Of a DNA stretch of 64,000 nt, positions 27,949-57,808 are shown piece by piece. Position 1 is the first letter of the stretch. Each line of letters opens with the position of its first letter. Source of the DNA: Sphingobacterium sp. JB170 (GTDB lineage: Bacteria > Bacteroidota > Bacteroidia > Sphingobacteriales > Sphingobacteriaceae); the NCBI RefSeq assembly GCF_900163865.1, contig NZ_FUKU01000013.1, positions 372,001-436,000 on the forward strand, given 5' to 3'. Under the pieces are notes generated by a model. That model was given only the letters and a program-made list of their open reading frames with translations. It searched no databases and was not told the DNA's origin. Made by a program: the position numbers and the translations under genes.

Positions 27949-28962
27949 TTATACACCGAGCAATATACTACGCCAGTCCTGTGATTCGGGGATCCCGGGT
28001 TTTCTTTTTCCGAAAAACTGGACGATCAGTTCGCCTTCCCGGTCAAAGACCTCGACACTGCTCACAATGCCATCTACCGTAGGTTTACGGACAATCCACA
28101 CCGATGCGATCTTATCTTCCCGCAAATGCATGTTAAATTCGTTGTCCAGCACATTGAACCAAACCCCTGTCTGGACCAGCTTTTCTATTTTACCGGTATG
28201 GATCTGGATACAGCCTTTGTTGCCAATAAATACCATGATCTCCAGGCTGATTTCCGAGGCTTTGTGTAGGATGGATTTCAGGCCTTCCACGGTGATGGCT
28301 TTGGTGTGCCCTTCAGGCGCAATTTCCAAGGCCTTTGTCCGTCCCACCCCATGCTTTTTCAGCATGGAAAAGAAATTGTGTGTATCCTCCAATGCCAGCC
28401 AGTCGCGCTGGAAAGCACCGACGTCTATATCTGCGGTGATATCGTTGTCGGTACCGGCCGAAGGCCGAATGTCCTGCTCTACAACCAGTGCTTCATCCGG
28501 GGTCTGCATCTTATATTTTGCGATCAAATCCTGATAGGCTTCCGGGACACTTTTCGCGGTCAGGTAGATTTTATGTACTGCTGTCCCGTTCTTTGCAAAG
28601 AACTGGATGCTTTTCCGGTCGCCTTCCTGTACGGCAAATACGGCATGCCAGCTGAAAAGGAATAGCCTAAGGTCAATATCTGCATTGGCGATAAAGCCGA
28701 CTTTACCTGAAAAGCTGGCCCGGGTGTAAATACCCTTACGTTCATGGACGGCGTGGTCATTGCGGGTCAGCGCCATCACATAGCCCAGGTGCGGGATTTC
28801 ACTAAGGATAGCTTCGAATTCTGGTCGCAGGCGGGTGTTTTCCTGTCCTATGGCGACCAGTTCAGCTTCGGTCACTCCCACCTGTTCGGCAGCGTCGCGA
28901 ATACGTACTTTAGGATTCTCTTCTTTGAACTGTCTGTACCTGGTTGATAATGTTTCGTTCAT
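27949..28962 (-). CDS. hmuS: HmuS/HemS-family heme-handling protein
   Basis: A 337-residue cytoplasmic protein of the HmuS/ChuS family, which binds heme from the ABC importer and traffics or degrades it. The family is two repeated domains; here the first has VSEAELVAIGQENTR-like VTEAELVAIG and GVGFIANADIDLRLFLFSW, the second TVDGIVSSVEVFDREGELIV and FFGKRKPGI near the C-terminus. Length fits the family (~340). It is the last gene of the locus-1 operon, 12 bp after hmuV. Confidence 0.93.
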   Translation of the reverse strand: MNETLSTRYRQFKEENPKVRIRDAAEQVGVTEAELVAIGQENTRLRPEFEAILSEIPHLGYVMALTRNDHAVHERKGIYTRASFSGKVGFIANADIDLRLFLFSWHAVFAVQEGDRKSIQFFAKNGTAVHKIYLTAKSVPEAYQDLIAKYKMQTPDEALVVEQDIRPSAGTDNDITADIDVGAFQRDWLALEDTHNFFSMLKKHGVGRTKALEIAPEGHTKAITVEGLKSILHKASEISLEIMVFIGNKGCIQIHTGKIEKLVQTGVWFNVLDNEFNMHLREDKIASVWIVRKPTVDGIVSSVEVFDREGELIVQFFGKRKPGIPESQDWRSILLGV

Positions 28963-28974
28963 TTTAGTTATATT

Positions 28975-29778
28975 TTAATCGTTATTTTTTGGAAAAGGTG
29001 CCAGGGCGGGGAAGATAAGCGGATACCGGTAATCTTTATGTTCGACCTGATTGATACTGACCTGGAATGCGGTCAGCACATTCTCTGCGGTTACCACCTG
29101 GTTGGGTGTACCGAAAGCGATGGTTTTTCCTTGCTTCAACAAGAGGATGTAATCTGCGTATTGGCAGGCAAAATTGATGTCGTGCAGGATACTGACGACC
29201 GTACATCCCTGGCCAGTCATCATACGGGCCAGCTGCAGAATGTTTTGCTGGTATAACAAATCCAGGCCGTTTGTCGGTTCATCAAGAAACAACAGCGCGT
29301 TTTGCTGGCCATATATCTGGGCCATTACACGGGCCAGCTGTACCCTTTGCTGTTCGCCTCCGGAAAGGGTGTTGTAGTCCCTGGTACTGTAGCTGTCCAT
29401 ACCTGTTTCCGCCAAAGCCTTATGTACAATTTCATAATCCATCATCGAGGGCTGCTGGCTAAAATGGGGATACCGCCCCATCATGACCAGTTCATCAACC
29501 CGGAAGGAGATCGACAGGGTATTGTGCTGGCTCAGTACCGAGCGGAAGCGGGCCAGTTCGGCAACCGTATACGACGACAGGGACCTGCCACAGAGGTCTA
29601 TACTACCCGAAGAGGGTTCGAGTTCTTTGCAGAGTATTCTCATCAGGGTACTTTTCCCCGCACCGTTGGCACCGATGATGGCAAGCATCTTGTTCCTGGG
29701 AAGTACAAAAGAGACATCGTCCAGCAATGTCCTGCCTGCAACCCGGTATGTGATATTCTTTACGGTAAGTGCTTCCAT
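28975..29778 (-). CDS. hmuV: Heme ABC transporter ATPase HmuV
   Basis: A 267-residue ABC ATPase. Walker A GANGAGKST (near residues 36-44), signature LSGGEQQRVQLARV (near 139) and Walker B ALLFLDEPTNGLD are intact. The FecE/HmuV type is shown by context: 11 bp after a FecCD permease and 12 bp before hmuS. It powers heme import across the inner membrane. Confidence 0.95.
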   Translation of the reverse strand: MEALTVKNITYRVAGRTLLDDVSFVLPRNKMLAIIGANGAGKSTLMRILCKELEPSSGSIDLCGRSLSSYTVAELARFRSVLSQHNTLSISFRVDELVMMGRYPHFSQQPSMMDYEIVHKALAETGMDSYSTRDYNTLSGGEQQRVQLARVMAQIYGQQNALLFLDEPTNGLDLLYQQNILQLARMMTGQGCTVVSILHDINFACQYADYILLLKQGKTIAFGTPNQVVTAENVLTAFQVSINQVEHKDYRYPLIFPALAPFPKNND

Positions 29779-36537: not shown

Positions 36538-36606
36538 TTTTTTAAAATTTAATTGTTTGATATACCATAAAACCGGGTTTCTTTTTATTTTTCATGTTTT
36601 CGTAAT

Positions 36607-38136
36607 CTATTCAAAGTAGTAGTCTTCGAGATTAGGGAACAGGCCTTTCATGTATTCCTTCGTCGGTGGGTTTGTCAAACCACTAAAGTAAATCCATTTC
36701 AATGCAGCGCCAGAATTATTCTCCAGAAAAGTACGGATATCCGCAAAGGCCAGTGCGGTACCGCCATAGGTGACATTTACTATTTCAAAATAGCCGACTT
36801 TAGAGAGATCGATAAATCCAAAATCGGGCTTTTGCGGAAAATCAACCTTGTTAATTGTAACGTTCACATCGAACTCGTCAAAGCGTTCTCTTTTCCCTAC
36901 GACCACGTTTTCTAGAGACAGTTCGGCTATATCCAAATTACCAAGATTAAACCCGGAAACATCGACATTGGCGATGGACAGCTTTTTGACCTTCACTTTA
37001 CCCACTTCACTTCCTCCAACGATATCAAGAGTGCAACTACCACCGTCACCCTCACCTCTACCTGTACCTTCGCCAAATCCGGATAACCGAATCTCATCGA
37101 TTTCGGTATTGCTGTCAGAACCAACGGTAAAAGTGCTTCTAGGTCCTATTTCCTTGCCTTCCACTACGAGGCGCTTGATTTTTGGTAATATACGGTAATT
37201 GACATTTTGGAAAGCTAACCGCGTCAAATGTTGTTTGTCCGGCAATAGCAGGGTGGTCAAGTTCGTCGCCACAACCGCGGGCAGATCCAGGCTTTCCAGC
37301 AGCGGGTACTTATCGGTAAAGTCGATCACCTCACCAAAGGGCGAGTAACGGACATTTGAGTTCTCCTTCACGATCAGGTGTTTTAGATTTTGTAGCTGAT
37401 CGATCTTAAGTTGCCAGCCCGCAGGTTGTTGCGATTGGAGTGTATACTCTAAGGTCTCGAGATTAGTCAGGTGGTTCAGATCGATAACGTCGTCAAACCG
37501 GGAATAGGTAGCCAGGTATTTCAATCCACGGAAAGGACGTAATACATTCGCAATTCTTCCCACTTCGCCTCCGTTGCCTTCATTATAAACCAAACTATCC
37601 ACACGTTCTAAATCGGCGCGCAGGTATTTGGTGGGCTTTCCTTCCACAGGCTGGATATTGAAATTGTTCGCCAGGAATCTTCTTAATCCACGACCTGTAT
37701 CATCCAACACGACCTCCAGAAACTCCACTTCTTCCGTATTGTAGTTGGCCAGGGTACTTTCCAGTTCTTCCAGCAGTTTGGTCTTGCGGGGCAACTTATC
37801 CGTAACCTGCTTGATCTGTTCTTCAAGGTCTGCGTACAGGTCCTGGAAAAGCACGTCAGGGTTGGTTTTTAGCTCGTTAAAGCCGGGGATGAAGTCCTTC
37901 AATATCTTCACGCCGGCAATCATTTCGGTATACTTACCCTTGAGACTATTGTCCGTAACGTTTTCCAGCAGGCGGTCCAGCGTTGCAACATCTTCATCAC
38001 TGATCGTGGCCTGCTCGGAAATCTCCAGGATACGCTGCTCGGTCAGCACGTTGTAGTCTATGCCGGGTTCCACGTCCTTTTTGCAGGAGAATGAAAGCGC
38101 GATAAATAATAAGGGTAAAAGAATTTTTGTTTTCAT
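36607..38136 (-). CDS. Lipoprotein with leucine-rich-repeat-like region
   Basis: A 509-residue lipoprotein (ALSFSCKKD, Cys near residue 18). A helical N-terminal third (about residues 30-150) is followed by irregular leucine-rich strands (LRPFRGLKYLATYS, LNHLTNLETLEYTL, LQNLKHLIVKEN, YPLLESLDLPAV, HLTRLAFQNVNYR) and a Gly-rich insert near residue 350. It is surface- or periplasm-anchored. Placed between an STN-type TonB receptor and HmuY, it may bind a host or heme-carrier protein. This is inference from context. Confidence 0.8.
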   Translation of the reverse strand: MKTKILLPLLFIALSFSCKKDVEPGIDYNVLTEQRILEISEQATISDEDVATLDRLLENVTDNSLKGKYTEMIAGVKILKDFIPGFNELKTNPDVLFQDLYADLEEQIKQVTDKLPRKTKLLEELESTLANYNTEEVEFLEVVLDDTGRGLRRFLANNFNIQPVEGKPTKYLRADLERVDSLVYNEGNGGEVGRIANVLRPFRGLKYLATYSRFDDVIDLNHLTNLETLEYTLQSQQPAGWQLKIDQLQNLKHLIVKENSNVRYSPFGEVIDFTDKYPLLESLDLPAVVATNLTTLLLPDKQHLTRLAFQNVNYRILPKIKRLVVEGKEIGPRSTFTVGSDSNTEIDEIRLSGFGEGTGRGEGDGGSCTLDIVGGSEVGKVKVKKLSIANVDVSGFNLGNLDIAELSLENVVVGKRERFDEFDVNVTINKVDFPQKPDFGFIDLSKVGYFEIVNVTYGGTALAFADIRTFLENNSGAALKWIYFSGLTNPPTKEYMKGLFPNLEDYYFE

Positions 38137-38224
38137 TTCTTTATTGATTACACTGTAGTTTATTGTTTTTTATTATTGTCCGTTTATTTGCCTGTCGGTA
38201 TCTCTCCATACGCGATACCGTTAC

Positions 38225-40831: not shown

Positions 40832-40906
40832 ATATAGTGTTGTCTGTATTTATTTCATTTTACCACGGTACTTTGTTTGGCGACGGGCGCCGTGGTCTTT
40901 TATTAT

Positions 40907-41887
40907 TTAGTATATTTTAATTGTTTTATGCTCATAATCAATGTTGTATCGAAAACCCAGGACGAAGGCCATGCTTCGTAGCAGCTCCTCCAATTTCGGG
41001 GCGTCGAATCTTGCATTGTACAGCTGATTGAGTAATTGTTTTCGGGATATAACAATTTTGTACCCGTACCATTTCTCAATCTTTCTGAACGCATCTTCGA
41101 GCGGTTCCTGTTCAAATACCAGTTTATTTTCTTTCCAGTGACCGATAAATGGGATGGATGCATATCCTTGCGCAAGTGAATGCGTAGCTTCATCATAAAT
41201 GGCAAACTGCCCTGCGTTCAGTTCCACGAAATCCTTCTGGTCGCTACCGGTCATAAAGTGTACCGTGCCTTCCGATACGGACACTTCCACCTGCGTTCTG
41301 TGCGGCTCCGCCCGGACATTGAATGCCGTTCCCACCACTTTTATCTGCGTATCGTATGCCGTATGGATGATAAATGGATGCTGTTTGTTTGCCGTAACTT
41401 CAAAATAGGCTTCTCCGGCCAGTTTGACCTCCCGATCATGACCTAAAAATACTTTGGGATAGCTTAAGGAGGCACCGGCATTGAGATAAACTTTCGTTCC
41501 GTCACTTAAAGTGACTATCTTTTTTTTACCGTACGGCACCTGGGTGTGGACGGTTATCTCATTTTGTTTAGGTGGCTTTACACCGTATCTGACTACGCCT
41601 ATTGTCGTCAGGGCGACCAATAATACAGATGCCGCCACATAGGGTGTCCAACGCCACAATGTTCTTCTGTTGTGCTTAGGGGTAGTAATTTCTTCCTGGG
41701 GAATACGTTCCATCAGGAATTCCCACATGACCGACCGGGATCTGGCAATATCCGAAGGGGGTACTTCCGGAGCTTCATGTGTTACGGAGATCGTATCCTC
41801 CTCCAGCCAAGCGCTTACTGCTTCACGTTCTTCTTCTGTGCATTGGCCCAGGTGATATCGCTTCAGGAGTTCCGGTGTAACGTTCAT
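40907..41887 (-). CDS. FecR-family anti-sigma regulator
   Basis: A 326-residue inner-membrane protein starting MNVTPELLKRYHLGQCTEEE (an in-frame ATG at 41914 is also possible). A cytoplasmic N-terminal ~75 residues binds the sigma factor. One membrane segment follows (YVAASVLLVALTTIGVVRYG), then the periplasmic FecR domain (TLSDGTKVYLNAGASLSYPK, REVKLAGEAYFEV, VVGTAFNVRA) and a DUF4974-type C-terminus. It should pass the signal from the STN receptor just downstream to the sigma factor upstream. Confidence 0.93.
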   Translation of the reverse strand: MNVTPELLKRYHLGQCTEEEREAVSAWLEEDTISVTHEAPEVPPSDIARSRSVMWEFLMERIPQEEITTPKHNRRTLWRWTPYVAASVLLVALTTIGVVRYGVKPPKQNEITVHTQVPYGKKKIVTLSDGTKVYLNAGASLSYPKVFLGHDREVKLAGEAYFEVTANKQHPFIIHTAYDTQIKVVGTAFNVRAEPHRTQVEVSVSEGTVHFMTGSDQKDFVELNAGQFAIYDEATHSLAQGYASIPFIGHWKENKLVFEQEPLEDAFRKIEKWYGYKIVISRKQLLNQLYNARFDAPKLEELLRSMAFVLGFRYNIDYEHKTIKIY

Positions 41888-42043
41888 ATATACTATTTCG
41901 TGCTGTTGTACCATATACTCGTAAAACCGGACCTTATCCCTTAGTGTAATTTTTAATTAAATTATAACGTTCTTGTTTTCAGTGAAATAAAATTTTTAAA
42001 AAAGGTTTGTATAAGAACGATTCTGTTTAGGCAAGGGAGATGA

Positions 42044-43294
42044 TCATTCCTTCTTTAGGGTTAATCCCGACGGCTCCATTGGGATCGGGTCTGTTATTCT
42101 CACGATCAGCTCTTTTTGGGATATTTTGGAAGGTACCCGATTTTGGCTTTTGTTCTGTATGCCTTCTCCTTCAAGAATTTCTTTGATTGCGCTGTCCGAG
42201 GGATTCCCCCAGGCGCTTGGATACATATCGACGGGTGTCGTGACCGTAGGCGGTATTCCGTCGAAATATCCGTTCCAGCCCTCCGCGTTCAGCAGATGGA
42301 AACTCGGCAGGAACAGGCTGTACTTATCGATATTTATACCAAACGATCCGACGGGTTTACCGTAGGTCGGCTGACCTACTATGCTGATATCCAGATATGG
42401 CTTTACGATACTTATCAGCAGTTCAGCTGCAGAGGAAGTCCGCACAGAAGTAATAAAAGATATTTTTCGTATATCGTTCATGTTCCCGAGTGGGTCAAAA
42501 TATTTGGTATTTGCCGTGGTACTATAATCCACATCAGCCATCGTAGCCGGCCGGCCTTTATAATATACCACCTTTCCGTTTTGGTCAAGATAGGGTTGGT
42601 AGCCCAGGATAGTTGCATTTCCTTCCTGCATCTGTTTGTTGAAGACCTGGGAAAACATCAGCTTGCCCTTCAGATGAGAAGGGGCAAGGAAATTTGCTAT
42701 ATACTCGGCTGTTTCAACATACCCTCCATTGTTGGTCCTCAGATCAATGATCAGTTCATCGATAGATTGGCCGGAAAGAAAACTGAAGGCCTCGTCATAT
42801 TCGGCCTTTGAATCCTTCAAGGTTGGGAAGGCGTCTAAGACGATATAACCTATTTTCCTGTTATGATGTGGCAGGATGGCCCGGTGCAAAACGGCTTTGC
42901 CGATGGTCGTTCCCGATGCCCGCATAAGGCCGCCCGCGGTTCCTGTTTCTGTAATGAAGGAATACTTGGGTGTATTGGACTGGATAGGATATTCAAACGG
43001 TCTGCCCGTCTGTGGATTGGTTTTAAGTTGGGTAATGTCGAAAAGCTCTTGTTTGAAAGCCGATATTTCAGATGCTTCGCCAGGATAGCGAGACCTCGGG
43101 GCAAAATCTGTATAGCTTGGCAAGGTTTCGTTCCACAGATAAAGCTGCTTGGCATATAGAAAAATGGAATCTTTGGTCATATCGAACCTTGACCCGGTAG
43201 TAGGGGACACGATAGGGTCGGATGGCAATGGGAGCGGTTCATTTTTTTTGCACCCGGCCAACAGCAACAGTATTAAAAATCCCATTTTTTTCAT
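42044..43294 (-). CDS. S41-family peptidase lipoprotein
   Basis: A 416-residue lipoprotein starting at 43294 (MKKMGFLILLLLAGCKK; an upstream ATG at 43342 is less likely). S41/CtpA motifs are ELIIDLRTNNGGYVETA, FITSVRTSSAAELLIS (catalytic Ser) and VGQPTYGKPVGSFG (catalytic Lys). No clear PDZ domain is seen. It sits between the sigma and FecR genes. In pseudomonads the S41 protease Prc helps process FecR-type anti-sigma factors, so a dedicated signalling protease is a plausible reading. Otherwise it may digest heme proteins. Confidence 0.9.
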   Translation of the reverse strand: MKKMGFLILLLLAGCKKNEPLPLPSDPIVSPTTGSRFDMTKDSIFLYAKQLYLWNETLPSYTDFAPRSRYPGEASEISAFKQELFDITQLKTNPQTGRPFEYPIQSNTPKYSFITETGTAGGLMRASGTTIGKAVLHRAILPHHNRKIGYIVLDAFPTLKDSKAEYDEAFSFLSGQSIDELIIDLRTNNGGYVETAEYIANFLAPSHLKGKLMFSQVFNKQMQEGNATILGYQPYLDQNGKVVYYKGRPATMADVDYSTTANTKYFDPLGNMNDIRKISFITSVRTSSAAELLISIVKPYLDISIVGQPTYGKPVGSFGINIDKYSLFLPSFHLLNAEGWNGYFDGIPPTVTTPVDMYPSAWGNPSDSAIKEILEGEGIQNKSQNRVPSKISQKELIVRITDPIPMEPSGLTLKKE

Positions 43295-43421
43295 CTGTGT
43301 ATAATTTTTTTTTATGGTGATGAAGCTACTAGATTTATTCATTCCCCTATGTGGTTGAATAAATCATGATGGTTTCATAAGGGCGGATATTGATGAAGAG
43401 TAAGGTTTCAAGGTTCTGGTC

Positions 43422-43922
43422 TTAGCGTGCCAGACCCAGCTTTTGGCGGATATATTTCAATGCCTTTGTCAGGTGTTGTTCCACGGTTTTTTCGGAAATG
43501 GATAATTTACCGGCGATATCCCTGTTGTTCAGTCCCTGATCCCTGCTCATAACATAGATCTCCCTGCATCTGCAGGGCAATTTTTCCACGGCGTGGCCGA
43601 TCAGTTTTTGTATCTCATTAAAACTGACCTCCTGCTCGGTAAAGCATTGGAAGTCGCAAGCCTGTAACCGCAGTTCGTCTATCAGCAGTTGTTTCCTGCT
43701 TTCCTTCCTAAAAAAATCGAATACTTTGTATTTAACCGCTTTGTATAAATATTGTCTGATATCACCCTCAACGGTTAAATCGTTGCGCCTTTCCCATAAC
43801 GAAAGGAACACATCCTGCACAATCTCCTCCGATTCGCGTTGGCCACAACGGTAACTCAGTGCGTATCTCAGCAATTCATCTGCGTATTGTTTATATATAT
43901 GTTCGAATAATCTCAGATCCAT
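43422..43922 (-). CDS. ECF sigma factor (FecI-like)
   Basis: A 166-residue sigma-70 family protein. Region 2 is LFEHIYKQYADELLRYALSY with ESEEIVQDVFLSLWE. Region 4 carries YVMSRDQGLNNRDIAGKLSI and SEKTVEQHLTKALKYIRQKL. It has the Bacteroidetes sigma/FecR/TonB layout with the genes downstream. A Fur-box-like palindrome lies about 100 bp upstream (44024-44042). Confidence 0.94.
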   Translation of the reverse strand: MDLRLFEHIYKQYADELLRYALSYRCGQRESEEIVQDVFLSLWERRNDLTVEGDIRQYLYKAVKYKVFDFFRKESRKQLLIDELRLQACDFQCFTEQEVSFNEIQKLIGHAVEKLPCRCREIYVMSRDQGLNNRDIAGKLSISEKTVEQHLTKALKYIRQKLGLAR

Positions 43923-44640: not shown

Positions 44641-45201
44641 CTATTGCATGGCCACGGCATCGTCAAAAACATCGCCGAACCGACCGAACGTCTCTATAGC
44701 TGTATCTATTGCCCTTTCTCTGTCCATCTCGTTGCCGGGCAGGGCATTCAGCGCAGCGGTAAACGATCCCCACATTTGGCCGGATTCCGCACCGTAACCG
44801 CTAAAGAAAGAAAATCCGTTGGCTATACCTTTCTTTTGCAGCATCTGCACGATGTACGGCCCACCCATGATGGAGCCCTCCAATACATACAATGCGCCCA
44901 TTGCTTGTATGGAATCATCTACTTCTGGTGCAATGGCCACGGGCAGGTCGCAAAGATTCCCACCAAGCGTTTCGATGTCGGCCTTGATGTACGACGAATT
45001 GCGCCGTTCCTTATAGTCTGGCAATACCGCCTCAGTATAAGGTGCTATAGCTTTTTCAACAGCGTTGAAATAAGCATAGAAGCATTTCAGCAATCCTACA
45101 TAATCGGCATCGTTAGCGATGTCCTTGATACGGAGCACTACTTTTTTCTCCGTTTCCTGATGGCCCCTTCTGGTGGCCTCTTTGATTTTTGTACTTAACA
45201 T
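44641..45201 (-). CDS. Heme oxygenase (biliverdin-producing family)
   Basis: A 186-residue cytoplasmic protein from the ATG at 45201 (MLSTKIKEATRRGHQETEKK; the frame extends upstream through the neighbouring gene). The helix with the proximal histidine (HQETEKK, His near residue 14) and GALYVLEGSIMGGPYIVQML (the distal-helix glycines) are typical. It would open heme and release iron and biliverdin. It is co-directional with the 106-residue gene and TonB receptor upstream. Confidence 0.88.
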   Translation of the reverse strand: MLSTKIKEATRRGHQETEKKVVLRIKDIANDADYVGLLKCFYAYFNAVEKAIAPYTEAVLPDYKERRNSSYIKADIETLGGNLCDLPVAIAPEVDDSIQAMGALYVLEGSIMGGPYIVQMLQKKGIANGFSFFSGYGAESGQMWGSFTAALNALPGNEMDRERAIDTAIETFGRFGDVFDDAVAMQ

Positions 45202-45220
45202 TTTCTTTCCTTTTTTTCGT

Positions 45221-45541
45221 TTAGCTATTAATAATGTTATACACCTGATACAGACACAATGCATCATGAACAGCCGTTTTGAAATCAGCAAACTCCCATT
45301 CATCAAAGGCAAAGCTGATTTCGGGATTGGGTGTATGGATGATGACTTTCCATTCGCCATCCGGGAATTCCACACAAGCTGTCTCAAAGAGCACTTCGTC
45401 GAGGAAACGGGAAAAATCCGACAATGCCTCCGCATCCAACCGCAAGATAAGGTTGCTGTGCCAGATATGGATTATCTGGCAACAAGTGGTCTGTGTGATC
45501 GTTGTTTTGCCCTCCCGGCTCAGTGTTTTCAGCTTGCACAT
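45221..45541 (-). CDS. Conserved 106-aa heme-locus protein
   Basis: A 106-residue soluble protein nearly identical to that at 27431-27718, with an 11-residue longer C-terminus. Features are TTCCQIIHIWHSN (adjacent Cys pair and two His), an acidic helix (LSDFSRFLDEVLFET) and a beta-rich tail. It lies between the TonB receptor (14 bp) and heme oxygenase (20 bp). I do not know the family function. The Cys/His content and constant position suggest a heme or iron partner role. Confidence 0.75.
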   Translation of the reverse strand: MCKLKTLSREGKTTITQTTCCQIIHIWHSNLILRLDAEALSDFSRFLDEVLFETACVEFPDGEWKVIIHTPNPEISFAFDEWEFADFKTAVHDALCLYQVYNIINS

Positions 45542-45554
45542 ACTATTTCCTTTA

Positions 45555-47942
45555 TCAATTCTTATAAAACCGATACGTCAGCCCCATGAGCAGGACACGA
45601 CCGGGTTGTCCCGGCATGAGCCTGTCTGTGTAGTCCGTAATATTGTCTGCGGTAAGCTGCAAGCTCAGGTGCTGCTTTATAAGTTTCTTTTCTATCGCCG
45701 CATTCACCAGAAAATGCCCGTTCACAAAGGTGTCGTATTGGTCAAGAAAGCGGTTATTGTTCCGGTCTACAAAACCGTACTTACCCCGGTAATTGACCCG
45801 TATATTGGCGGTAATATCCCACGGGGCAAAGCGGTAGGCCACCCGCAGGTTGGCCATGTGACGGGAGCGGTTTTCCAGCCCGAAGTAGTCGGATAGCCTG
45901 GAATCCCTGAATACCCCGGTAGCATTGTCCCGCACCGACCCGTAAGCTCCAGTGCTGTTGCGGATGCTGTCCATCACACCTTTGTCCTTGGAAACCAGAT
46001 ACTGATAACCTGCTGTAATATCCACATCCCGAAAAGGGCTGTAGCCTATACTTGCCTCCAGTCCTGTGTTGAATGATTCGGGCAGGTTCTGGTAGGTGTA
46101 TATATCCCTGATACTTGTGCCAGTAGCCACGCGGATGCTGTTGATCTGGTTGGAGAGTTTATGATAGAATACGTTAATATTAATCTTGAGGTTTTGCCTT
46201 GGCGTGAAGTCAAAACCACCGTTGAAAGATAGCGACTTCTCGGCCTGAAGGTTCTGATCCAGTTGGTTGACCAGATATTCCCTGATTTCACTGATTTGCC
46301 CGGCATCTTTCATGTCCTGGAGTGTCTGGCCGAGCAGTTCTGCACCGATGACTAAGTAGTTGGCTATTGGATTCATAAATACCTGATAACGCTGACGATA
46401 ATCGGGTGTCTTGAATCCACTGCCGAGCGCCATCTTGAACGTCAGTGTCGGTAGGATATGGTACTGCAAGCCGAGGCTCGGGTTCAGGCGTCCACCGAAA
46501 CTGTTGTGGTGGTCGTAGCGCAAACCTCCTACTGCTTCTAGTCGGTCACTGATTTTCCAATCGCCTTGCAGGTACGCAAAGCCGCTCCACAGGCCCCCTG
46601 GCACGTTGAAGTCCCGGTTGTCCATGTTCTCTACGCTACCGCCCAATCCCCCGGTGAATTTCAGATTGTGTACCGGTGCGTAGGCAAACTGTTGTTCGAA
46701 GCGGTGCAGGGTCTGCTCGAATTTTTCGGCGCTGGCCTGGGCGCCGGTCTGCTGCCAAAGGATGCTCATATCCGACACGTATCGGGTGAGGTAATAGCGA
46801 CTCATGCTGCGTAGGCCGCCATTAAAAGTCTTGTCGTAGGTCAGCGAGGCATTGATATCGGTGATGTCCTGGCTGTCGCCCGCAGTATTTTGGTTACCCC
46901 CCGTGCCGAAAATCTGTTGCATATAGGATTTGCGCAAAGCGTACCTTGCTGAAGTGCCTATGGTACTGGTTTCGGTCAATCGGTACCTTGCCCGTCCCTG
47001 TACCGTATAGTCATCATAAGGTGGTGCAGTAGTACCTCCTGACATAAATTGGGGGTCAGTATTGAAGCCATCGGTGCGGTAATAGTTGGCAGAGAGGTTG
47101 ACCGAACCCCGCTGATGATGGAACGGTGTCTCGCCTTCTAAGGTGGCGTCCACAATGTTGAGCGAGCCATACCGCAGGGCAGCCAACGCCTGTGGCTGTA
47201 TGGCACCGTGACGAGTGACGATGTTGATGGCACCGCCCAATGCCTCGCTACCAAAGAGGCAGGACGAAGCACCCTTAATGATCTCGATACGCTCGATATT
47301 GCTCACGCTGATCCGTGACAGGTCGAAGTTGCCGCTATTGCGGCCGACCATCGGCTGCCCGTCGATCAGGATCATCACATAATCACTGCCAAAGCCCTGC
47401 ATCTGTACGCCCACGGCCCTTGCTCCTCCTCCTATGTCATTGACCACGGCAATGCCCGTCTGCTCTTTCAATACTTCATCCAGTCGGCGGCTGCCCATCT
47501 GGGCAATGGTTTCCTTGCTGATGACCGTTACGGGCATGGCGCTACGCTCTATATCGAGCAGATGATCGACGGCAGTCATCTTGCCCAGCACTTCCACCTC
47601 GTCCAGTGTATTTTCGCCCTCATCAAGCCGTATCTCGATGGTATTGGTTTTCCCGACCTCGATTTTTGCGTTGACCGTATATGACCGATAGCCCAGCCTA
47701 CTTATATATACCGTGTATTTTCCGGCAATGACGCCCATGAAGAGGAAGTTGCCGTTTTCATCGGTCTGGGTGTGGTGCATGTCGGGTTCGAGGCGGACAC
47801 TTGCACCTATTATGGGAGAGTTCTGGTCGTTCAGTACCTGACCGCTAAGGGAACCTCTTATGGTAGATTGGGGATATAAATATGGTAGATTAATAAGCAG
47901 AAGAGCAAAGAGAATATACAGCTTATTATTTAGTTTTTTCAA
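45555..47942 (-). CDS. TonB-dependent heme/iron receptor with CarboxypepD-like domain
   Basis: A 795-residue receptor. Signal peptide (LYILFALLLINLPYLYPQ), then a carboxypeptidase-regulatory-like domain (SGQVLNDQNSPIIGASVRLE, GKYTVYISRLGYRSYTV; residues ~30-110), plug (LDEVLKEQTGIAVVNDIGGG, YVMILIDGQPMVGRNSG, IERIEIIKGASSCLFGSEAL) and barrel ending GLTYRFYKN. It heads a run with the 106-residue protein and heme oxygenase, so heme is the likely substrate. The broken tail at 27738-27868 derives from a gene like this one. Confidence 0.93.
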   Translation of the reverse strand: MKKLNNKLYILFALLLINLPYLYPQSTIRGSLSGQVLNDQNSPIIGASVRLEPDMHHTQTDENGNFLFMGVIAGKYTVYISRLGYRSYTVNAKIEVGKTNTIEIRLDEGENTLDEVEVLGKMTAVDHLLDIERSAMPVTVISKETIAQMGSRRLDEVLKEQTGIAVVNDIGGGARAVGVQMQGFGSDYVMILIDGQPMVGRNSGNFDLSRISVSNIERIEIIKGASSCLFGSEALGGAINIVTRHGAIQPQALAALRYGSLNIVDATLEGETPFHHQRGSVNLSANYYRTDGFNTDPQFMSGGTTAPPYDDYTVQGRARYRLTETSTIGTSARYALRKSYMQQIFGTGGNQNTAGDSQDITDINASLTYDKTFNGGLRSMSRYYLTRYVSDMSILWQQTGAQASAEKFEQTLHRFEQQFAYAPVHNLKFTGGLGGSVENMDNRDFNVPGGLWSGFAYLQGDWKISDRLEAVGGLRYDHHNSFGGRLNPSLGLQYHILPTLTFKMALGSGFKTPDYRQRYQVFMNPIANYLVIGAELLGQTLQDMKDAGQISEIREYLVNQLDQNLQAEKSLSFNGGFDFTPRQNLKININVFYHKLSNQINSIRVATGTSIRDIYTYQNLPESFNTGLEASIGYSPFRDVDITAGYQYLVSKDKGVMDSIRNSTGAYGSVRDNATGVFRDSRLSDYFGLENRSRHMANLRVAYRFAPWDITANIRVNYRGKYGFVDRNNNRFLDQYDTFVNGHFLVNAAIEKKLIKQHLSLQLTADNITDYTDRLMPGQPGRVLLMGLTYRFYKN

Positions 47943-51107: not shown

Positions 51108-51920
51108 TTATCTTGTTATTTCAAATTTTGTGCTTCCTGCCTTGGCCAATACATACTCGAAAGTATAATATACATGAGGAGAGTCCCGTCTCCATTCCGA
51201 TGGATCGGTTTGGTCCTTGTACAGGCTAATCATCTTTATCTTTGCGTAATTGCCCCGTGCCGTCCGTACCACGAGTGTACGCGGCGGAAGTTTACGCTCG
51301 TTTGCGGCACCTTTGTACAGTGTAGCTGTATCTGCGAGACAATAAGCAATGTGTTGGTATTCAAAGGAGCCATCATTAAAAATAGTTCCGGCAAAGTCAT
51401 AGCAGTAGTAACCTACACCGCTGCCGAATGCTCCTGCGTCGTCCGTCCCGAAAATGCCCGATCCGGTGCGGAACTGCGCATCGCCAGGTATGTCCACCAC
51501 ATCATCAAATGCCTTTTCGAGAATAAGTATGCCACCTTTACCCGGTCCTCGGTAGCCAAGATTGGAAACATCTGTACCATTATTCCCCCCGGCGAAGCTC
51601 CTATAAACACCGTTGAAACTGATATCCCATCTGGCGGTCTGTGTGTAGGCGGTGTTCACCGTAGTTTGATTTTCCAAACTGTAGTATATGGGATCTTGGT
51701 TTGCCATAGGTTCGTGCCCTGCGGGGAGCTCTCCTCCAAGATTGGTAACGGTAATCAGTTTATTGAAAATAGATTCGTCCACAGGGGGAGCCGGTTCCGG
51801 CTCGGGCACACCACTTTCCTTGTCGCAGGATGATAGTGTAGCTATTGAAAGTAGGATAATAAAGCACTTCAATAATGCCTTGTAGAATTTGTCGTTTGTT
51901 TTGCAACCTGTTGATGCCAT
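51108..51920 (-). CDS. hmuY: HmuY-family lipoprotein (locus 2, second)
   Basis: A 270-residue lipoprotein (ATLSSCDKE, Cys near residue 32). HmuY landmarks are YYSLENQT early, ARWDISFNGVYRS (the WDIAF motif), YYCYDFAGT, TLVVRTARGNYAKIKMISLY and YYTFEYVLA near the end. HmuY lipoproteins capture heme and pass it to a TonB receptor. Paralogous to the next gene upstream. Confidence 0.87.
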   Translation of the reverse strand: MASTGCKTNDKFYKALLKCFIILLSIATLSSCDKESGVPEPEPAPPVDESIFNKLITVTNLGGELPAGHEPMANQDPIYYSLENQTTVNTAYTQTARWDISFNGVYRSFAGGNNGTDVSNLGYRGPGKGGILILEKAFDDVVDIPGDAQFRTGSGIFGTDDAGAFGSGVGYYCYDFAGTIFNDGSFEYQHIAYCLADTATLYKGAANERKLPPRTLVVRTARGNYAKIKMISLYKDQTDPSEWRRDSPHVYYTFEYVLAKAGSTKFEITR

Positions 51921-51952: not shown

Positions 51953-52705
51953 TTATTTTGTTCTTAAATTTTTGCTGCCGTCCGGTTGTACGTAATACCG
52001 AAAGGTAAAGTAAGGTGCAGGCCAGTTCATATTCGTCACATCTGGGGGGTTGCCCTGATAGACATTGAGCAATTCGAGCTTGGCATACTTTCCATCCGGT
52101 AGCCTGATGACCCATGTTCGGTTTTTGATCGGGATGGCAATATGGGTGTCCATACTATAAAAGAACCAACCTACAGCGTAGGCATTAGTCGCCCAGCCAA
52201 CTTTGGTGATCTGGGAGTTGTCAAATTCTTCGTCTGATGGTGCTTCGTTAACATCTGCATAGGGTTGCTCCAACATCAGCACTGCTGTCTCTGTCGCTGG
52301 TCCCTCATATCCCGGATTGTAGAAGTAGTTGGCATTATTGATAAAGACCTCGCTATTATAAGGACCGGTAAATGCAATATCCCAATCATCAGTTTTCATC
52401 CATTTTGAAGAATCGGCCGCATTGCGGAGCCAGATCTGTTGCTTGTCCGCTAACCGGAACAGAAATGTATCGAATCCTTTCTTGGTCTTTCCTTCTGCCT
52501 CGTCACCCATGGATCCGTTGGTGTCACCCGCCAGATCGTAAATGACCGTGCTTTTTCCGTCCTCGATATTTGTGCTCGGAAGAATTTCTTCTTTTTTGCA
52601 TGACGTAAAGGCGAGGGATAGCGAAGTACATGCCATAAGGAAGTAATTCAACGCTCGTTGGCTCACTTGAAACTTTATGAAAAAACTATTTATGTTACTT
52701 ACCAT
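51953..52705 (-). CDS. hmuY: HmuY-family lipoprotein (locus 2, first)
   Basis: A 250-residue lipoprotein (LAFTSCKKE, Cys near residue 36; the ATG at 52705 gives a rather long pre-sequence). It has DDWDIAFTGPYNSEVF, VGWFFYSMDTHIAI, RTWVIRLPDGKYAKLELLNV and PAPYFTFRYYVQPDG. First gene of the minus-strand arm of locus 2. A Fur-box-like palindrome ends 17 bp before the start codon, within the expected promoter. Confidence 0.87.
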   Translation of the reverse strand: MVSNINSFFIKFQVSQRALNYFLMACTSLSLAFTSCKKEEILPSTNIEDGKSTVIYDLAGDTNGSMGDEAEGKTKKGFDTFLFRLADKQQIWLRNAADSSKWMKTDDWDIAFTGPYNSEVFINNANYFYNPGYEGPATETAVLMLEQPYADVNEAPSDEEFDNSQITKVGWATNAYAVGWFFYSMDTHIAIPIKNRTWVIRLPDGKYAKLELLNVYQGNPPDVTNMNWPAPYFTFRYYVQPDGSKNLRTK

Positions 52706-52782: not shown

Positions 52783-52978
52783 TTTGTTCAATCCGTTTTT
52801 TCTTTTGTTCAAAACGTTTTATCTTTTGTTCAATCCGTTTTTTCTTGCCCCAAATTGGGCTGTTTTTTTAAAGAAACAGACGAAATATTTTCTATATAAA
52901 GCACTAATATTCTGTAAATTATACATGATAATGACTCTCTGTTATTCCAAAATTTCATTTGTTTAATCCGTTTTTTGT
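52783..52978. promoter_or_regulatory. Array of 21-bp-spaced direct repeats
   Basis: TTTGTTCAATCCGTTTTTTC starts at 52783 and 52825; TTTGTTCAAAACGTTTTATC lies between at 52804, so three copies repeat every 21 bp (two helical turns). A fourth, TTTGTTTAATCCGTTTTTTG, starts at 52958. All face the same way, in the 371-bp divergent promoter region between hmuY and hmuT. This looks like a cooperative operator for one regulator, perhaps the short Fur-like protein at 56940. Confidence 0.65.
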
Positions 52979-53076: not shown

Positions 53077-53925
53077 ATGTATTACAAAAAGACAAGAACA
53101 ATATTGCTGCTAAGCAGCTTTTGCATGCTGTGTGTTCTATCGGCAACAGCCCAACCCAAACGCATCATTACGCTGGGGGGAGCAATCACCGAGACGGTGG
53201 CGGCATTGGGATTTGAAAGACAGATTATCGCCGTGGACGTAACAAGCGAATATCCGGTGGCAATAAAGAAATTACCAAAGGTCAGCAGGAACCGTTCGGT
53301 CTCGGCCGAGGGGTTGATGGCCTACCGACCTGACCTGGTTATTGCACTACAGGGCGATGTTCCTTACGGGGTTATCCAGTCACTAAAAGGGGCGGGAATC
53401 CGGTTCGTGGCCATCAAACAGGAGTATTCGGTCAAAGGTGCATTGGTCTTTATCCGTGACATAGGCAGTGCGCTGGGCGTAAAGGATAAGGCAGAAAAGC
53501 TGGCGCAGGAAACCGAGCAGGGTATAACCAAAGCCCTGCAAACCGTAAAGGCAAGTAGTAAGAAACCAAAGGTATTGTTTCTCTACGCCCGTGGTACGGG
53601 CACGATGACCGTCGCCGGAAAGGGAAGTAATATGGATGCGATAATCGGTCTTGCCGGGGGACGCAACGCTATACAGGAGTTCAACCGCTACAAGACCTAT
53701 AGCACCGAAGCACTCGTTAACGCCAATCCGGATGTACTGGTGATGTTCGATTTCGGCATGGAAAGTCTGGGGGGCAAGAACGGCGTGCTGGGCATGCCGG
53801 GGGTAGCGTTTACCAAGGCTGGTAAGAACAAAAAGATTGTATCGGTCGATGGCCCGTTGATGATAAATTTTGCTACACGGCTGGATCAGGCTATACTGGC
53901 ACTGCACCGGGAATTAACCCGATAG
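53077..53925 (+). CDS. hmuT: Hemin-binding periplasmic protein HmuT (locus 2)
   Basis: A 282-residue exported binding protein with a signal peptide ending LSATAQPK (no lipobox, unlike its locus-1 counterpart). It shares KVLFLYARGTGTMTVAGKGS, LVNANPDVLVMFDFGMESLGG and the final LDQAILALHREL pattern with HmuT proteins. It opens the plus-strand arm: hmuT-hmuU-hmuVS-fur-like. Confidence 0.93.
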   Translation: MYYKKTRTILLLSSFCMLCVLSATAQPKRIITLGGAITETVAALGFERQIIAVDVTSEYPVAIKKLPKVSRNRSVSAEGLMAYRPDLVIALQGDVPYGVIQSLKGAGIRFVAIKQEYSVKGALVFIRDIGSALGVKDKAEKLAQETEQGITKALQTVKASSKKPKVLFLYARGTGTMTVAGKGSNMDAIIGLAGGRNAIQEFNRYKTYSTEALVNANPDVLVMFDFGMESLGGKNGVLGMPGVAFTKAGKNKKIVSVDGPLMINFATRLDQAILALHRELTR

Positions 53926-53953: not shown

Positions 53954-54997
53954 ATGACAAAAAGAAGCATTATATACCTAAGCCTCACCATCGGGCTATT
54001 GGTGGTCGTTGTCTTTTCGCTTGGGATGGGCGCAATGAAAATCCCTGTGCAGGAGACCTTGAAGATATTGGCAAAAGCATCGGGTCTGGCTAAGGATGCC
54101 GTGGTCGATGATCTGGCAGAAAACGTATTATTGCACGTGCGGCTGCCCCGTGTACTTTTGGGCCTGCTGGTCGGCGCGGCATTGGGCATATCGGGCGGTG
54201 CGGTGCAGGGTATCTTCCGTAACCCGCTGGCCGAACCGGGATTAATCGGTATTTCGGCAGGGGCTTCGCTCTTTGCCGTATTGATTATCGGGTTGGAAGC
54301 CATCCTGTTCGTTACGTTGGGTCAGTTATTTGGTTTTTATCTGTTGGCTTTCGGTGCGTTCGCCGGAGCAGGATTGGCCGCGATGTTGGTGTACCAGTTT
54401 TCCAAGACGGACGGCAAGCCGAACGTGGCAACAATGCTGCTGGCCGGTATCGCCATCAATGCGCTTGCCGGTGCGCTTACCGGACTGGTCACGTACCTCG
54501 CCGACGAACAGCAGTTGCGTACCATCACCTTTTGGATGCTCGGTAGCCTGGGTGGAGCCAATTGGAACATGGTGCTGGGCATCACGCCCTTTGTCCTGAT
54601 CCCCGTATTTGTATTGCCCGTTTACGGCAGGGGGCTCAACCTATTCGCCATTGGCGAGCATCAGGCCGAGCAGATCGGCATGAACCCGAATCGCATCAAA
54701 AGCGGTGTGGTCATCCTATCGACACTTGCTGTGGGGGCATGTGTTTCCGTATCGGGTATCATCGGCTTTGTCGGTCTGCTGGTGCCGCACATCGTCCGAT
54801 TGGTTGGCGGCGTGGACCATCGGCTTGTACTTCCGGCATCGGCCCTGCTGGGGGCGTTGGTGCTTACCCTCGCCGATATGCTGGCACGTGTGCTTGCCGC
54901 GCCTGTTGAGCTCCCCATCGGGGTTATCACGGCATTGCTGGGTACGCCGGTATTCCTGTATATCCTGTACAAAGACAAAAAGAAAATATTACAATAG
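53954..54997 (+). CDS. hmuU: Heme ABC permease HmuU (locus 2)
   Basis: A 347-residue FecCD-family permease with about ten membrane segments: RLPRVLLGLLVGAALGISGG, GIFRNPLAEPGLIGISAGAS, GFVGLLVPHIVRLVGG. Clearly paralogous to the locus-1 permease. It starts 28 bp after hmuT, and a 77-bp gap with a hairpin separates it from the fused ATPase gene. Confidence 0.94.
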   Translation: MTKRSIIYLSLTIGLLVVVVFSLGMGAMKIPVQETLKILAKASGLAKDAVVDDLAENVLLHVRLPRVLLGLLVGAALGISGGAVQGIFRNPLAEPGLIGISAGASLFAVLIIGLEAILFVTLGQLFGFYLLAFGAFAGAGLAAMLVYQFSKTDGKPNVATMLLAGIAINALAGALTGLVTYLADEQQLRTITFWMLGSLGGANWNMVLGITPFVLIPVFVLPVYGRGLNLFAIGEHQAEQIGMNPNRIKSGVVILSTLAVGACVSVSGIIGFVGLLVPHIVRLVGGVDHRLVLPASALLGALVLTLADMLARVLAAPVELPIGVITALLGTPVFLYILYKDKKKILQ

Positions 54998-55074: not shown

Positions 55075-56913
55075 ATGTTAAGAGTAGAATCCGTTAGCTA
55101 CGAAATCAACAAAAGGCACTTACTGAAAGATATTACGTTCAGTATCCGAAAGGGAGAAATGGTGGCCATACTCGGTGCCAATGGGGCCGGGAAATCCACC
55201 CTGATGAAAATCCTCTGCCGGGAGAAACAACCCACCGACGGTAAGGTGGTGTACGGGGGCCGGAACCTCAACGACTACACGGCAAAGGAACTGTCCGAAA
55301 CGCGGGCCACCCTGTACCAGCAGAACGCCATTACATTAGCGTTTACCGTAGAGGAAGTGGTATTGATGGGTCGGTATGGCAAAGAAGCCACATCTGCCGG
55401 GGAAGCGGACAGGGTTGCCCTAAAGGAAACGATGGATATCTGCGGTATCAGCCATTTGGCTGACCGCTCCATGCTGACACTTTCCGGCGGTGAGCAACAA
55501 CGGGTACACCTTGCCCGTGTGCTGGCCCAGGTGTGGGATAACCGGGAAGCGCTCCTGCTGCTGGACGAACCCATCGCAAATATGGATATGCTGTACCAGC
55601 ACCAGACCTTGGCCATTGCAAACGCATTGGCCAAAAAGGGCTATATGGTAGTCTGTGTGTTGCATGAGATCAATCTCGCGGCGCAGTATGCCGACCGAAT
55701 CATCATGCTGAAAGGCGGTCGGAAATGGTGGGACGGAGCCCCCGAAGAGGTGTTTACCTCACGCAATATATTCACGGCTTTCGGTGTCCATTCGACCGTG
55801 CAGACCAACCCCCGTACCTTGATCACGCAGGTCACGCCGAACGGACTCAAGTTTGACGCTGCGGCATTCAATTCCAACCTTGCCGATATTTATAACAAGC
55901 GGTCGCTTCTGGAACGCTTCATTTCCTATCGGGATGAATATCCGGCCAAACCGCTCTGGCAGGTTGCCGAAACACTTGGCGTGAGCGAGGCAGAACTTTT
56001 ACTTTTGGGTCTGGGCGAGAACGTGACCCTGCTACGACCCGAAGTGGGTGCCATCCTCGGACGGATTGCCGATCTGGGGCTGGTGAAAGGCGTGACCTAC
56101 AATGCCTATTGCGAAACGGAGCGTACGGGCGTGTACCGGAATTTTTCCAAAGAAGACCACACCCTGTTGTTTTTGGACGAGGATATAGACCTGCGGATAT
56201 TTCCGGGCCGTTGGAAGCTCGCTTTGGCGGTGGAAGACAAGGGAAAGGAAAGCCTGCGGTTTTTTGACGCCGAGGGGCGATCTGTGCACCAGATCCACCT
56301 GACAGACGGCAGCTACCGTGATGTGTACAGGGATATCGTCCTTACATTCCGGCAGGACCGGCAGGTTGCCCCCAAAATAGAACGCACGGGCCGCAAACGC
56401 ATGGAAGAACGGCGGGACGCGGAGATCGACATCAGTGATTTTCATGTGGCATGGAACGATATGCAGGATACCCACGAGTTTTTCGGACTGCTCAGGCGCT
56501 TCGGGCTGACCCGCATGCAGGCGCTACGGCTGGCACCGCCAAGACGGGCGATGCAGGTCAGCCTGGAGTCTTTCCGCAGGACGATCCACCAATGCGCGGA
56601 GACCGATGTTCCCGTGATGAAGTTTACGGCCAACGAGGGCTGTGTACAGATCAATACGGGAAAGTTGGATGACATTGACCACACCGATCAATGGATCAGC
56701 CTGTCGGAAACTTCCGGCGGTAGATTGCGGCTGAACGAGGATGCCGTCCACAGCGTGTGGCATGTGGTCAAACCGACGGTGGACGGCGATGTCAACTCGT
56801 TGGAGCTCTACGATGCCGAGGGCGAACTGATCGTGCAGTTTTTCGGGGAGCGCAAGCCGGGCATCGCTGAATTGGAAAGCTGGCGCGAGGCATTGGCAAA
56901 CAGTCTTGTTTAA
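55075..56913 (+). CDS. Fusion of HmuV ATPase and HmuS heme-handling protein
   Basis: A 612-residue protein. Residues 1-~255 are a complete HmuV-type ABC ATPase: Walker A GANGAGKST, signature LSGGEQQRVHLARV, Walker B LLLLDEPIANMD. Residues ~275-612 are a complete HmuS-like protein with both repeats: VSEAELLLLGLGENVTLL and LFLDEDIDLRIFPGRWKLAL, later VWHVVKPTVDGDVN and FFGERKPGI. No stop, frameshift or low-complexity linker lies at the join (VTPNGLKFDAAAFNSNLADI). The equivalent functions are two separate genes in locus 1. The fusion would tether heme trafficking or degradation to the inner-membrane importer. Confidence 0.93.
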   Translation: MLRVESVSYEINKRHLLKDITFSIRKGEMVAILGANGAGKSTLMKILCREKQPTDGKVVYGGRNLNDYTAKELSETRATLYQQNAITLAFTVEEVVLMGRYGKEATSAGEADRVALKETMDICGISHLADRSMLTLSGGEQQRVHLARVLAQVWDNREALLLLDEPIANMDMLYQHQTLAIANALAKKGYMVVCVLHEINLAAQYADRIIMLKGGRKWWDGAPEEVFTSRNIFTAFGVHSTVQTNPRTLITQVTPNGLKFDAAAFNSNLADIYNKRSLLERFISYRDEYPAKPLWQVAETLGVSEAELLLLGLGENVTLLRPEVGAILGRIADLGLVKGVTYNAYCETERTGVYRNFSKEDHTLLFLDEDIDLRIFPGRWKLALAVEDKGKESLRFFDAEGRSVHQIHLTDGSYRDVYRDIVLTFRQDRQVAPKIERTGRKRMEERRDAEIDISDFHVAWNDMQDTHEFFGLLRRFGLTRMQALRLAPPRRAMQVSLESFRRTIHQCAETDVPVMKFTANEGCVQINTGKLDDIDHTDQWISLSETSGGRLRLNEDAVHSVWHVVKPTVDGDVNSLELYDAEGELIVQFFGERKPGIAELESWREALANSLV

Positions 56914-57257: not shown

Positions 57258-57305
57258 TCCATATAATAACATGGCAATCAACTCATTTATTATTTGTTAA
57301 CTAAA

Positions 57306-57347
57306 AAACTGCACAGCCTGAAAATTAATATGGAGCCTGTGCAGTTT
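57306..57347. terminator. Bidirectional terminator between convergent genes
   Basis: AAACTGCACAG (57306-57316) and CTGTGCAGTTT (57337-57347) form a perfect 11-bp stem. An A-run precedes it and TTTAGTATT follows, so it can work on both strands between the Fur-like gene and the cupin gene. Confidence 0.7.
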
Positions 57348-57368
57348 AGTATTGATACGAATGTTCGG

Positions 57369-57692
57369 TCACCCTCTGACCATCGTCAGCAACATCTTGA
57401 ATGCCGTGGTTGCATATACGGCATGGGGAATATTGGCAGGTAGGATAATCATTTCTCCCGCATTTACCTCATAGGGCTCGCCCGCAATGTGTATCAGTGC
57501 TTCGCCCTCAACGACTTGCAGGGCAGCATCAAAGGGAGCGGAATGCTCGCTGAGCTGCTGATCTTTGTCAAAGGCAAAAAGAGTAATGTTACCTGCCTTG
57601 CTTTTGGCGATTTGCTGGCTAATCACTCCGTTTAGTGAATATTGGATTCTTTCCTTTAGGGAAAAGACAGTAGGTGTTTCCGTTGTTGTCAT
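57369..57692 (-). CDS. Cupin-domain protein
   Basis: A 107-residue single-domain cupin. The first box is SEHSAPFDAALQVVEGEALI, the second GEMIILPANIPHAVYA, with conserved His residues that would bind a metal. No enzymatic function can be assigned. It is convergent with locus 2 and transcribed in the same direction as region 5 but separated from it by 116 bp. Confidence 0.88.
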   Translation of the reverse strand: MTTTETPTVFSLKERIQYSLNGVISQQIAKSKAGNITLFAFDKDQQLSEHSAPFDAALQVVEGEALIHIAGEPYEVNAGEMIILPANIPHAVYATTAFKMLLTMVRG

Positions 57693-57808
57693 TTAATTTA
57701 AGATTTTCTTGTTTTAACCTGCGCAGCAACAGTGTTCCTATTGCTGCGAGGCTGTTACGTTTATATATATATTCACTTATACTTTTAATTTACAAATAGT
57801 ATGACGAT

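Follow-up and report, generated by a model that had tools for sequence, protein, structure and literature searches.

The window, a stretch of 64,000 nucleotides from Sphingobacterium sp. JB170, includes two heme loci, one of which contains a single uninterrupted frame of 612 open codons (Table 1). The predicted product is an ABC ATPase of the HmuV type that continues into a two-repeat protein of the HemS type. A complete ATPase running into a complete two-repeat protein had been proposed from the sequence only, and this architecture was confirmed by the frame and by Pfam, NCBIfam and structure matches. In Pfam, ABC_tran matched residues 17-167 (106 bits), HemS (PF05171) matched two stretches with 192 bits against a cut-off of 24 (best at residues 478-608), and ChuX_HutX, at residues 298-413, spanned HemS repeat 1. 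Residues 1-255 matched the NCBIfam model NF010068, 'heme ABC transporter ATP-binding protein', with 290.4 bits (cut-off 261). The Walker A (from residue 34), signature (136) and Walker B (160) motifs are all present, and an H-loop-like VLHEIN sequence is found at residue 195. As expected for an hmuV gene, the fused gene directly follows genes for a substrate-binding protein and a FecCD permease, with 28 bases between the first two genes and 77 bases between the permease gene and the fusion. The C-terminal half shares its frame with the ATPase and hence is not a free-standing HemS protein, but its membership of the HemS domain family stands.

Table 1. Features of the heme loci in the 64,000-nucleotide window (positions are those of the window)
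Feature	Position	Strand	Basis or remark
Separate hemS-type gene, locus 1	27949..28962	-	Pfam; in frame with hmuV, from which one TAA and four codons separate it
Separate hmuV, locus 1	28975..29778	-	Pfam, NCBIfam
Heme oxygenase (PF01126), divergent operon, likely heme acceptor	44641..45435	-	48.3 bits, cut-off 23
TonB-dependent receptor, divergent operon	45555..47942	-	
HmuY-like lipoprotein	51108..51920	-	29.7 bits, over cut-off
HmuY-like lipoprotein, divergent operon	51953..52705	-	25.2 bits, just under Pfam cut-off of 27
Operator-like direct repeats: GTTCAAnnCGTTTT at 52786, 52807 and 52828 (21-bp steps), fourth copy GTTTAATCCGTTTT at 52961	52786..52974	+	
Substrate-binding protein, Peripla_BP_2, HmuT position	53077..53925	+	Pfam; no family model over cut-off settles the substrate
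Permease, FecCD, HmuU position	53954..54997	+	Pfam; no family model over cut-off settles the substrate
Fused gene, HmuV ATPase and two-repeat HemS, 612 aa	55075..56913	+	ORF list, Pfam, NCBIfam, structure-sequence matches
HmuV-type ABC ATPase domain, residues 1-255	55075..55839	+	NCBIfam, motif positions
Junction, residues 256-275	55840..55899	+	Model pLDDT, alignment
HemS repeat 1, about residues 276-427	55900..56355	+	Arg374 at 56194-56196
HemS repeat 2, about residues 453-611	56431..56907	+	His467 at 56473-56475, aligned to HemS His196
Short Fur-like protein, 105 aa	56940..57257	+	Pfam

Sequence matches to solved proteins extended over residues 3-253 for HmuV (4g1u_C), 276-608 for HemS (2j0p) and 283-606 for PhuS (4mf9). 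In the HMMER alignment to HemS, with positions counted along the printed rows, His467 falls on HemS His196 and Arg374 on HemS Arg102, which we take to be the pocket arginine. The iron ligands are HemS His196, ChuS His193 and PhuS His209 (passages of PMC6018153).

The C-terminal half had earlier been labelled HmuS. Its assignment to the HemS type (PF05171) held, but the name proved ambiguous, as the HmuS of the Bacteroidota hmu operon is a membrane-bound CobN-like de-chelatase unrelated to HemS (excerpts of PMC12583661). HemS/PhuS/ChuS is therefore the clearer name for this half. No CobN/ChlH-type chelatase domain was found in the fused protein, for which only ABC_tran, HemS and ChuX_HutX were over the Pfam cut-off, and a CobN-like identity for the C-terminal half was ruled out on domain content. 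Production of a separate HemS protein from an internal start was also rejected for this gene, since no start is apparent: codons 250-309 include neither ATG nor TTG in frame, and the one GTG (residue 303) lies inside the HemS part. In several relatives, an ATG in the same frame lies close to where HemS formerly started, and judging from this codon internal initiation of HemS may be possible in them.

The stretch at residues 250-275 is 25-28 residues long in all 22 intact fusions described below. In an AlphaFold2 model of the fused protein built from nine rows (mean pLDDT 72.9, pTM 0.52), the junction at residues 256-274 has pLDDT values below 50 and is possibly flexible. Ten-residue blocks of the HemS part mostly have pLDDT values of at least 80, with dips to 48-78, and residues 71-190 of the ATPase have values of 30-67. 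Given the low values in the ATPase part and the junction, how the two halves are placed relative to each other is not confidently predicted. In Foldseek searches with the model, TMt was 0.91 for PhuS (4mgf) and 0.92 for HemS (2j0p), with a range of 0.89-0.92 for PhuS, HemS and ChuS, and 0.83-0.84 for HmuV (4g1u).

A receptor or HmuY gene diverging from the substrate-binding protein, permease and ATPase genes recurs across the island loci that were read with wide flanks. Neither the permease nor the substrate-binding protein scored over any NCBIfam cut-off, and B12 transporters were among their best models; homology and context point to heme as the substrate. Against heme, the HmuTUV homologues of Stenotrophomonas were found to play no part in hemin acquisition (PMC9241770, in excerpt). 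The Fur-like protein starts 26 bases past the fused gene, and a protein of this kind, of 95-110 residues, follows the ATPase gene at many, though not all, related loci. Three that were scanned gave a partial Fur match (27-29 bits), and the protein is far shorter than the Fur family profile.

The direct repeats between the divergent operons, with the fourth copy sitting 133 bp beyond the third, look like an AraC-type operator. Among 24 related loci scanned with one mismatch allowed, the four-copy spacing was shared by L049, L098 and L099, the repeats were partly present in L048 and L050, and one or two copies were found in L052 and L054; they were absent from L047, L051 and most other loci. In scanned relatives, the ATPase gene has as its neighbour a gene for an AraC-type regulator of 320-339 residues (5 of 5 proteins by Pfam), for example at 8133-9113 of L047 and 5277-6239 of L107. 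At the matching place in the window (57258-57700), the ORF list includes no AraC-type regulator and a small cupin protein is encoded instead.

Two further groups of genes were observed in the window. An ECF sigma factor, FecR, a TonB receptor, an S41 peptidase and a HmuY-domain protein are encoded at 35257-43922, forming another surface-signalling set between the two heme loci. At 24-21603, a few kilobases ahead of the heme loci, lie the TraM, TraG, relaxase and RteC genes of a conjugative transposon, together with a gene for a Fic protein. The view that this 1-21 kb element carries the heme loci as cargo was unsupported; the closest integrase match on that contig is about 120 kb off (251782).

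To look for other proteins in which an ABC ATPase is followed by HemS had been suggested with the sequence-only reading, and this search revealed 21 further intact loci. The fusion is thus a conserved family and not unique to the window. After removal of duplicates, the 22 distinct intact loci comprise 12 from Sphingobacterium, six from relatives in the family including Pedobacter, three from Flavobacterium and one from Sinomicrobium, spanning four named genera and at least two families. Named carriers are S. corticibacterium, Flavobacterium limi, F. pectinovorum, F. ajazii, Pedobacter metabolipauper and Sinomicrobium oceani; in Sinomicrobium sp. N-1-3-6, an ATPase without HemS was found. Intact fusions were present in 12 of 93 Sphingobacterium genomes (E <= 1e-90), the other 81 being without one, in 18 of 351 genomes of the family sample (E <= 1e-110; 12 of them Sphingobacterium), in 2 of 299 Flavobacterium genomes (E <= 1e-95) and in 2 of 395 genomes of the phylum sample, the JB170 genome included; these samples overlap, and the counts depend on the E-value limits (1e-90 to 1e-110) set for each search. 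In 17 further Flavobacterium matches, stops separate the halves into two genes. The search covered Bacteroidota, together with plasmids and whatever lay within reach of a collection scan for short exact peptide patterns, which reaches close relatives only and makes the count beyond Sphingobacterium a lower bound. Of the 47 plasmid records matched at 1e-40, two had a query coverage of 80% or more; these are from Leptospira biflexa, and each is annotated as two genes.

HemS (PF05171, E <= 1e-5) was found in 36 of the 93 Sphingobacterium genomes. When the 12 of these with an intact fusion were searched with PF05171 for a separate HemS, one was found only in JB170, at locus 1. For the remaining 11, no candidate for the HemS role was thus found other than the fused protein.

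Fifteen Sphingobacterium loci (L015-L018, L041-L043 and L089-L096), designated type B, encode proteins of 570-585 residues in which the ATPase is followed by a decayed HemS-like tail. The heme-ligand segment has been lost from these proteins, and the tail is still open over about 300 codons and constrained; HemS was over the Pfam cut-off in all eight of the 15 that were run. Four of the 12 Sphingobacterium genomes with an intact fusion (G006, G028, G033 and G094) also carry a type B protein. Lone ATPases without any tail occur in the same island of other relatives. Because relatives with a decayed or missing tail exist, the tether is dispensable in some lineages. S. micropteri (G031; L011, L053 and L055) has a broken fusion: the contig breaks off inside the ATPase part, and a TAG stop lies in frame.

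Residue conservation was assessed in an alignment of 61 rows, comprising the 22 intact fusions, 14 type B proteins (L095, from genome G091, was omitted here and from the trees) and 25 separate HemS proteins. A His was found at position 467 in 21 of the 22 intact fusions, in none of the type B proteins and in all 25 separate HemS proteins. Position 374 is Arg in 21/22, 1/14 (where the alignment is uncertain) and 25/25, respectively. The sole intact fusion without both ligand residues is that of Sinomicrobium oceani. At aligned position 470, equivalent to PhuS His212, which serves in the transfer to HemO, none of the 22 fusions has the His that would provide a PhuS-type second ligand, and hence a PhuS-type ligand switch cannot be assumed.

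The intact fusion is under purifying selection. By the Nei-Gojobori method, with some dS values near saturation, dN/dS was 0.035-0.123 for the HemS part (7 of 12 pairs computable) and 0.013-0.077 for the ATPase part (10 of 12). Type B tails gave values of 0.10-0.30 (5 of 9 pairs informative), and their ATPase parts 0.01-0.05 in the four of the same five pairs that were computable. Saturation affected five of 12 type A pairs and three of nine type B tail pairs, and the type B pair L016-L093 was too close. Constraint on the type B tails is thus weaker but present.

The ATPase tree was built from 73 of 82 rows, L095 and eight similar lone ATPases being omitted; loci read twice, the distant JB170 ATPases (L003-L008), L055, L056 and the G031 entries L011, L046 and L053 had been omitted from the set earlier. 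Island ATPases, whether fused or lone, split from those of split loci (99/99), and within the tree the ATPases of intact fusions, type B proteins and lone genes are intermixed, with eight changes between fused and unfused. In the HemS tree of 47 rows, from which type B tails were omitted as too diverged, all 22 fused rows lie on one side of one branch (77/70; 72% of 200 bootstrap trees); L014 and L052 have long branches, the program warned of the placement of L052, and support for a single origin is moderate. One fusion followed by several losses or decays is the simplest reading, and change counts alone cannot separate gain from loss. In L014 (genome G019), both ligand residues are retained and the HemS branch is very long (3.78). 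This row is sister to the type B protein L018 in the ATPase tree (89/83), and L014 is plausibly an intermediate between the intact and type B forms.

Transfer of the fusion between genera is likely. The window protein shares 75-79% identity with the Flavobacterium copies and 47-49% with seven other Sphingobacterium copies. Furthermore, the Flavobacterium rows join the window row in the HemS tree (96/85) and are sister to four Sphingobacterium rows in the ATPase tree (94/78). Probably, a single run-on event joined neighbouring hmuV and hemS genes, after which the fusion moved in part by horizontal transfer and was eroded or severed in several lineages. Origin by run-on fits the layout of locus 1, where the two separate genes lie as the sequence-only reading had described them and share one frame, and it fits the methionine that four of the family fusions (L081-L084) have where separate HemS proteins start.

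The continuous frame with both domains complete, the conserved ligands, the island context, purifying selection and recurrence at 22 loci are established for the fusion. The best-supported reading of its function is direct hand-off of heme at the membrane, and it is on balance probable that the island encodes a heme importer whose ATPase subunit bears its own cytoplasmic heme receiver. Expressed as one protein, the fused ATPase would act with the substrate-binding protein and permease, which would carry heme across the inner membrane. The HmuUV importer consists of two permease and two ATPase subunits (PMC5136619, in excerpt). If the ATPases dimerise here as in HmuUV (4g1u), each importer would have two HemS copies, each held by a short tether at the C-terminus of an ATPase, and these would form two receivers beneath the exit. 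The receiver would take the emerging heme via His467 and Arg374 and then pass it on. PhuS takes up cytoplasmic heme and transfers it to HemO (passages of PMC7948967). The likeliest next acceptor in the island would be the heme oxygenase of the divergent operon, since a heme oxygenase is encoded within 20 kb at 9 of 12 intact fusion loci. The same holds for 12 of 15 type B loci and for 19 of 21 lone-ATPase loci (those listed at E <= 1e-90), and this equal linkage indicates that the heme oxygenase does not need the tether. The idea that the fused HemS tracks heme oxygenase, with both being lost together, is likewise not supported by it. The equal linkage and the missing equivalent of PhuS His212 weigh against delivery to the heme oxygenase.

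The sequence-only reading had spoken of a heme-trafficking or heme-degrading domain. As the island has its own heme oxygenase, the role of chaperone is favoured over that of degradation. The HemS half could instead be mainly an enzyme that degrades heme while tethered at the importer, like ChuS or Yersinia HmuS, which belong to the same fold family. ChuS and the HmuS of Y. pseudotuberculosis degrade heme in vitro (passages of PMC6018153 and PMC12670364), and at three of the 12 intact fusion loci (G062, G063 and G092) no linked heme oxygenase was found, with none found anywhere in the G092 genome. Against this, the other nine have the enzyme close by, and the nearest solved matches are PhuS and then HemS, though similarity does not settle activity. 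Tethered degradation is unlikely, though it is the alternative that survives best.

A role in control of the importer is suggested by the choice of partner, as HemS is fused to the ATPase and not to the heme oxygenase. Some ABC importers have C-terminal regulatory domains. The HemS half could be a built-in heme gauge, in which occupancy of His467 alters the ATPase rate so that import slows once the acceptor is saturated. This is quite unlikely, but if true the type B tail would be a heme-blind regulatory or assembly domain, and the island would show the stages by which a heme receiver became a regulatory appendage and then disappeared. Type B tails, without His467 in all 14 aligned proteins and without Arg374 in 13, nonetheless persist as open and constrained sequences, and from this a non-heme role, and hence a new role for the type B tail, is possible. 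However, all but one of the intact fusions retain the heme ligands, and no second, unfused HemS was found in 11 of the 12 Sphingobacterium genomes; both argue against a C-terminal half that acts as a regulatory domain, sensing cytoplasmic heme and setting the ATPase rate, and the lone ATPases of the same island indicate that regulation by a tail is dispensable there. A regulatory domain of this kind is quite unlikely.

An incidental fusion, in which loss of a stop between co-transcribed genes brought no gain from the tether and the HemS half behaves just like a free HemS protein, is no more probable. Locus 1 and other split loci have hmuV and hemS side by side in this same order, a single TAA stands between the locus 1 pair, and the tail has apparently decayed or been lost several times. 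However, the fusion has been kept across 22 loci in several genera, has apparently been transferred between genera and has a junction of near-constant length in every intact copy. Finally, a sequencing or assembly artefact joining two genes, which had been raised as a stop or frameshift near the junction, found no support apart from the existence of a broken copy elsewhere (G031) and was ruled out, with negligible remaining probability, by the same intact frame in 21 other loci.

To our knowledge, the path of heme from an ABC importer to its cytoplasmic acceptor is poorly defined. A conserved natural covalent link between ATPase and HemS is genetic evidence that both act together, and the fusion offers a tractable single-chain system for reconstitution, with island relatives whose tail is decayed or missing as ready natural controls. 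The earlier reading had known of no such fusion, and in searches of the open-licence PMC literature no description of one was found. As far as this literature goes, the parts are known, and the covalent architecture, its conservation and its erosion are new.

With the HmuS of Bacteroidota, the window protein has only the name and the heme-operon setting in common. On the Leptospira biflexa plasmid p74, genes for a heme ATPase and a hemin-degrading factor are adjacent but annotated as two and unfused. The HemS/PhuS/ChuS proteins (PF05171; 2j0p, 4mf9 and 4cdp) share the two-repeat fold, the proximal His and the pocket Arg with the window protein, but the solved examples are free proteins of 345-360 residues, and the fusion is without an equivalent of PhuS His212. 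The likeness to HmuV of Yersinia pestis HmuUV (4g1u) lies in residues 1-255, in the match to the heme ATPase model and in the substrate-binding protein and FecCD permease genes upstream. However, the solved HmuV chain (266 residues) stops after the ATPase, whereas the window protein runs on into HemS.
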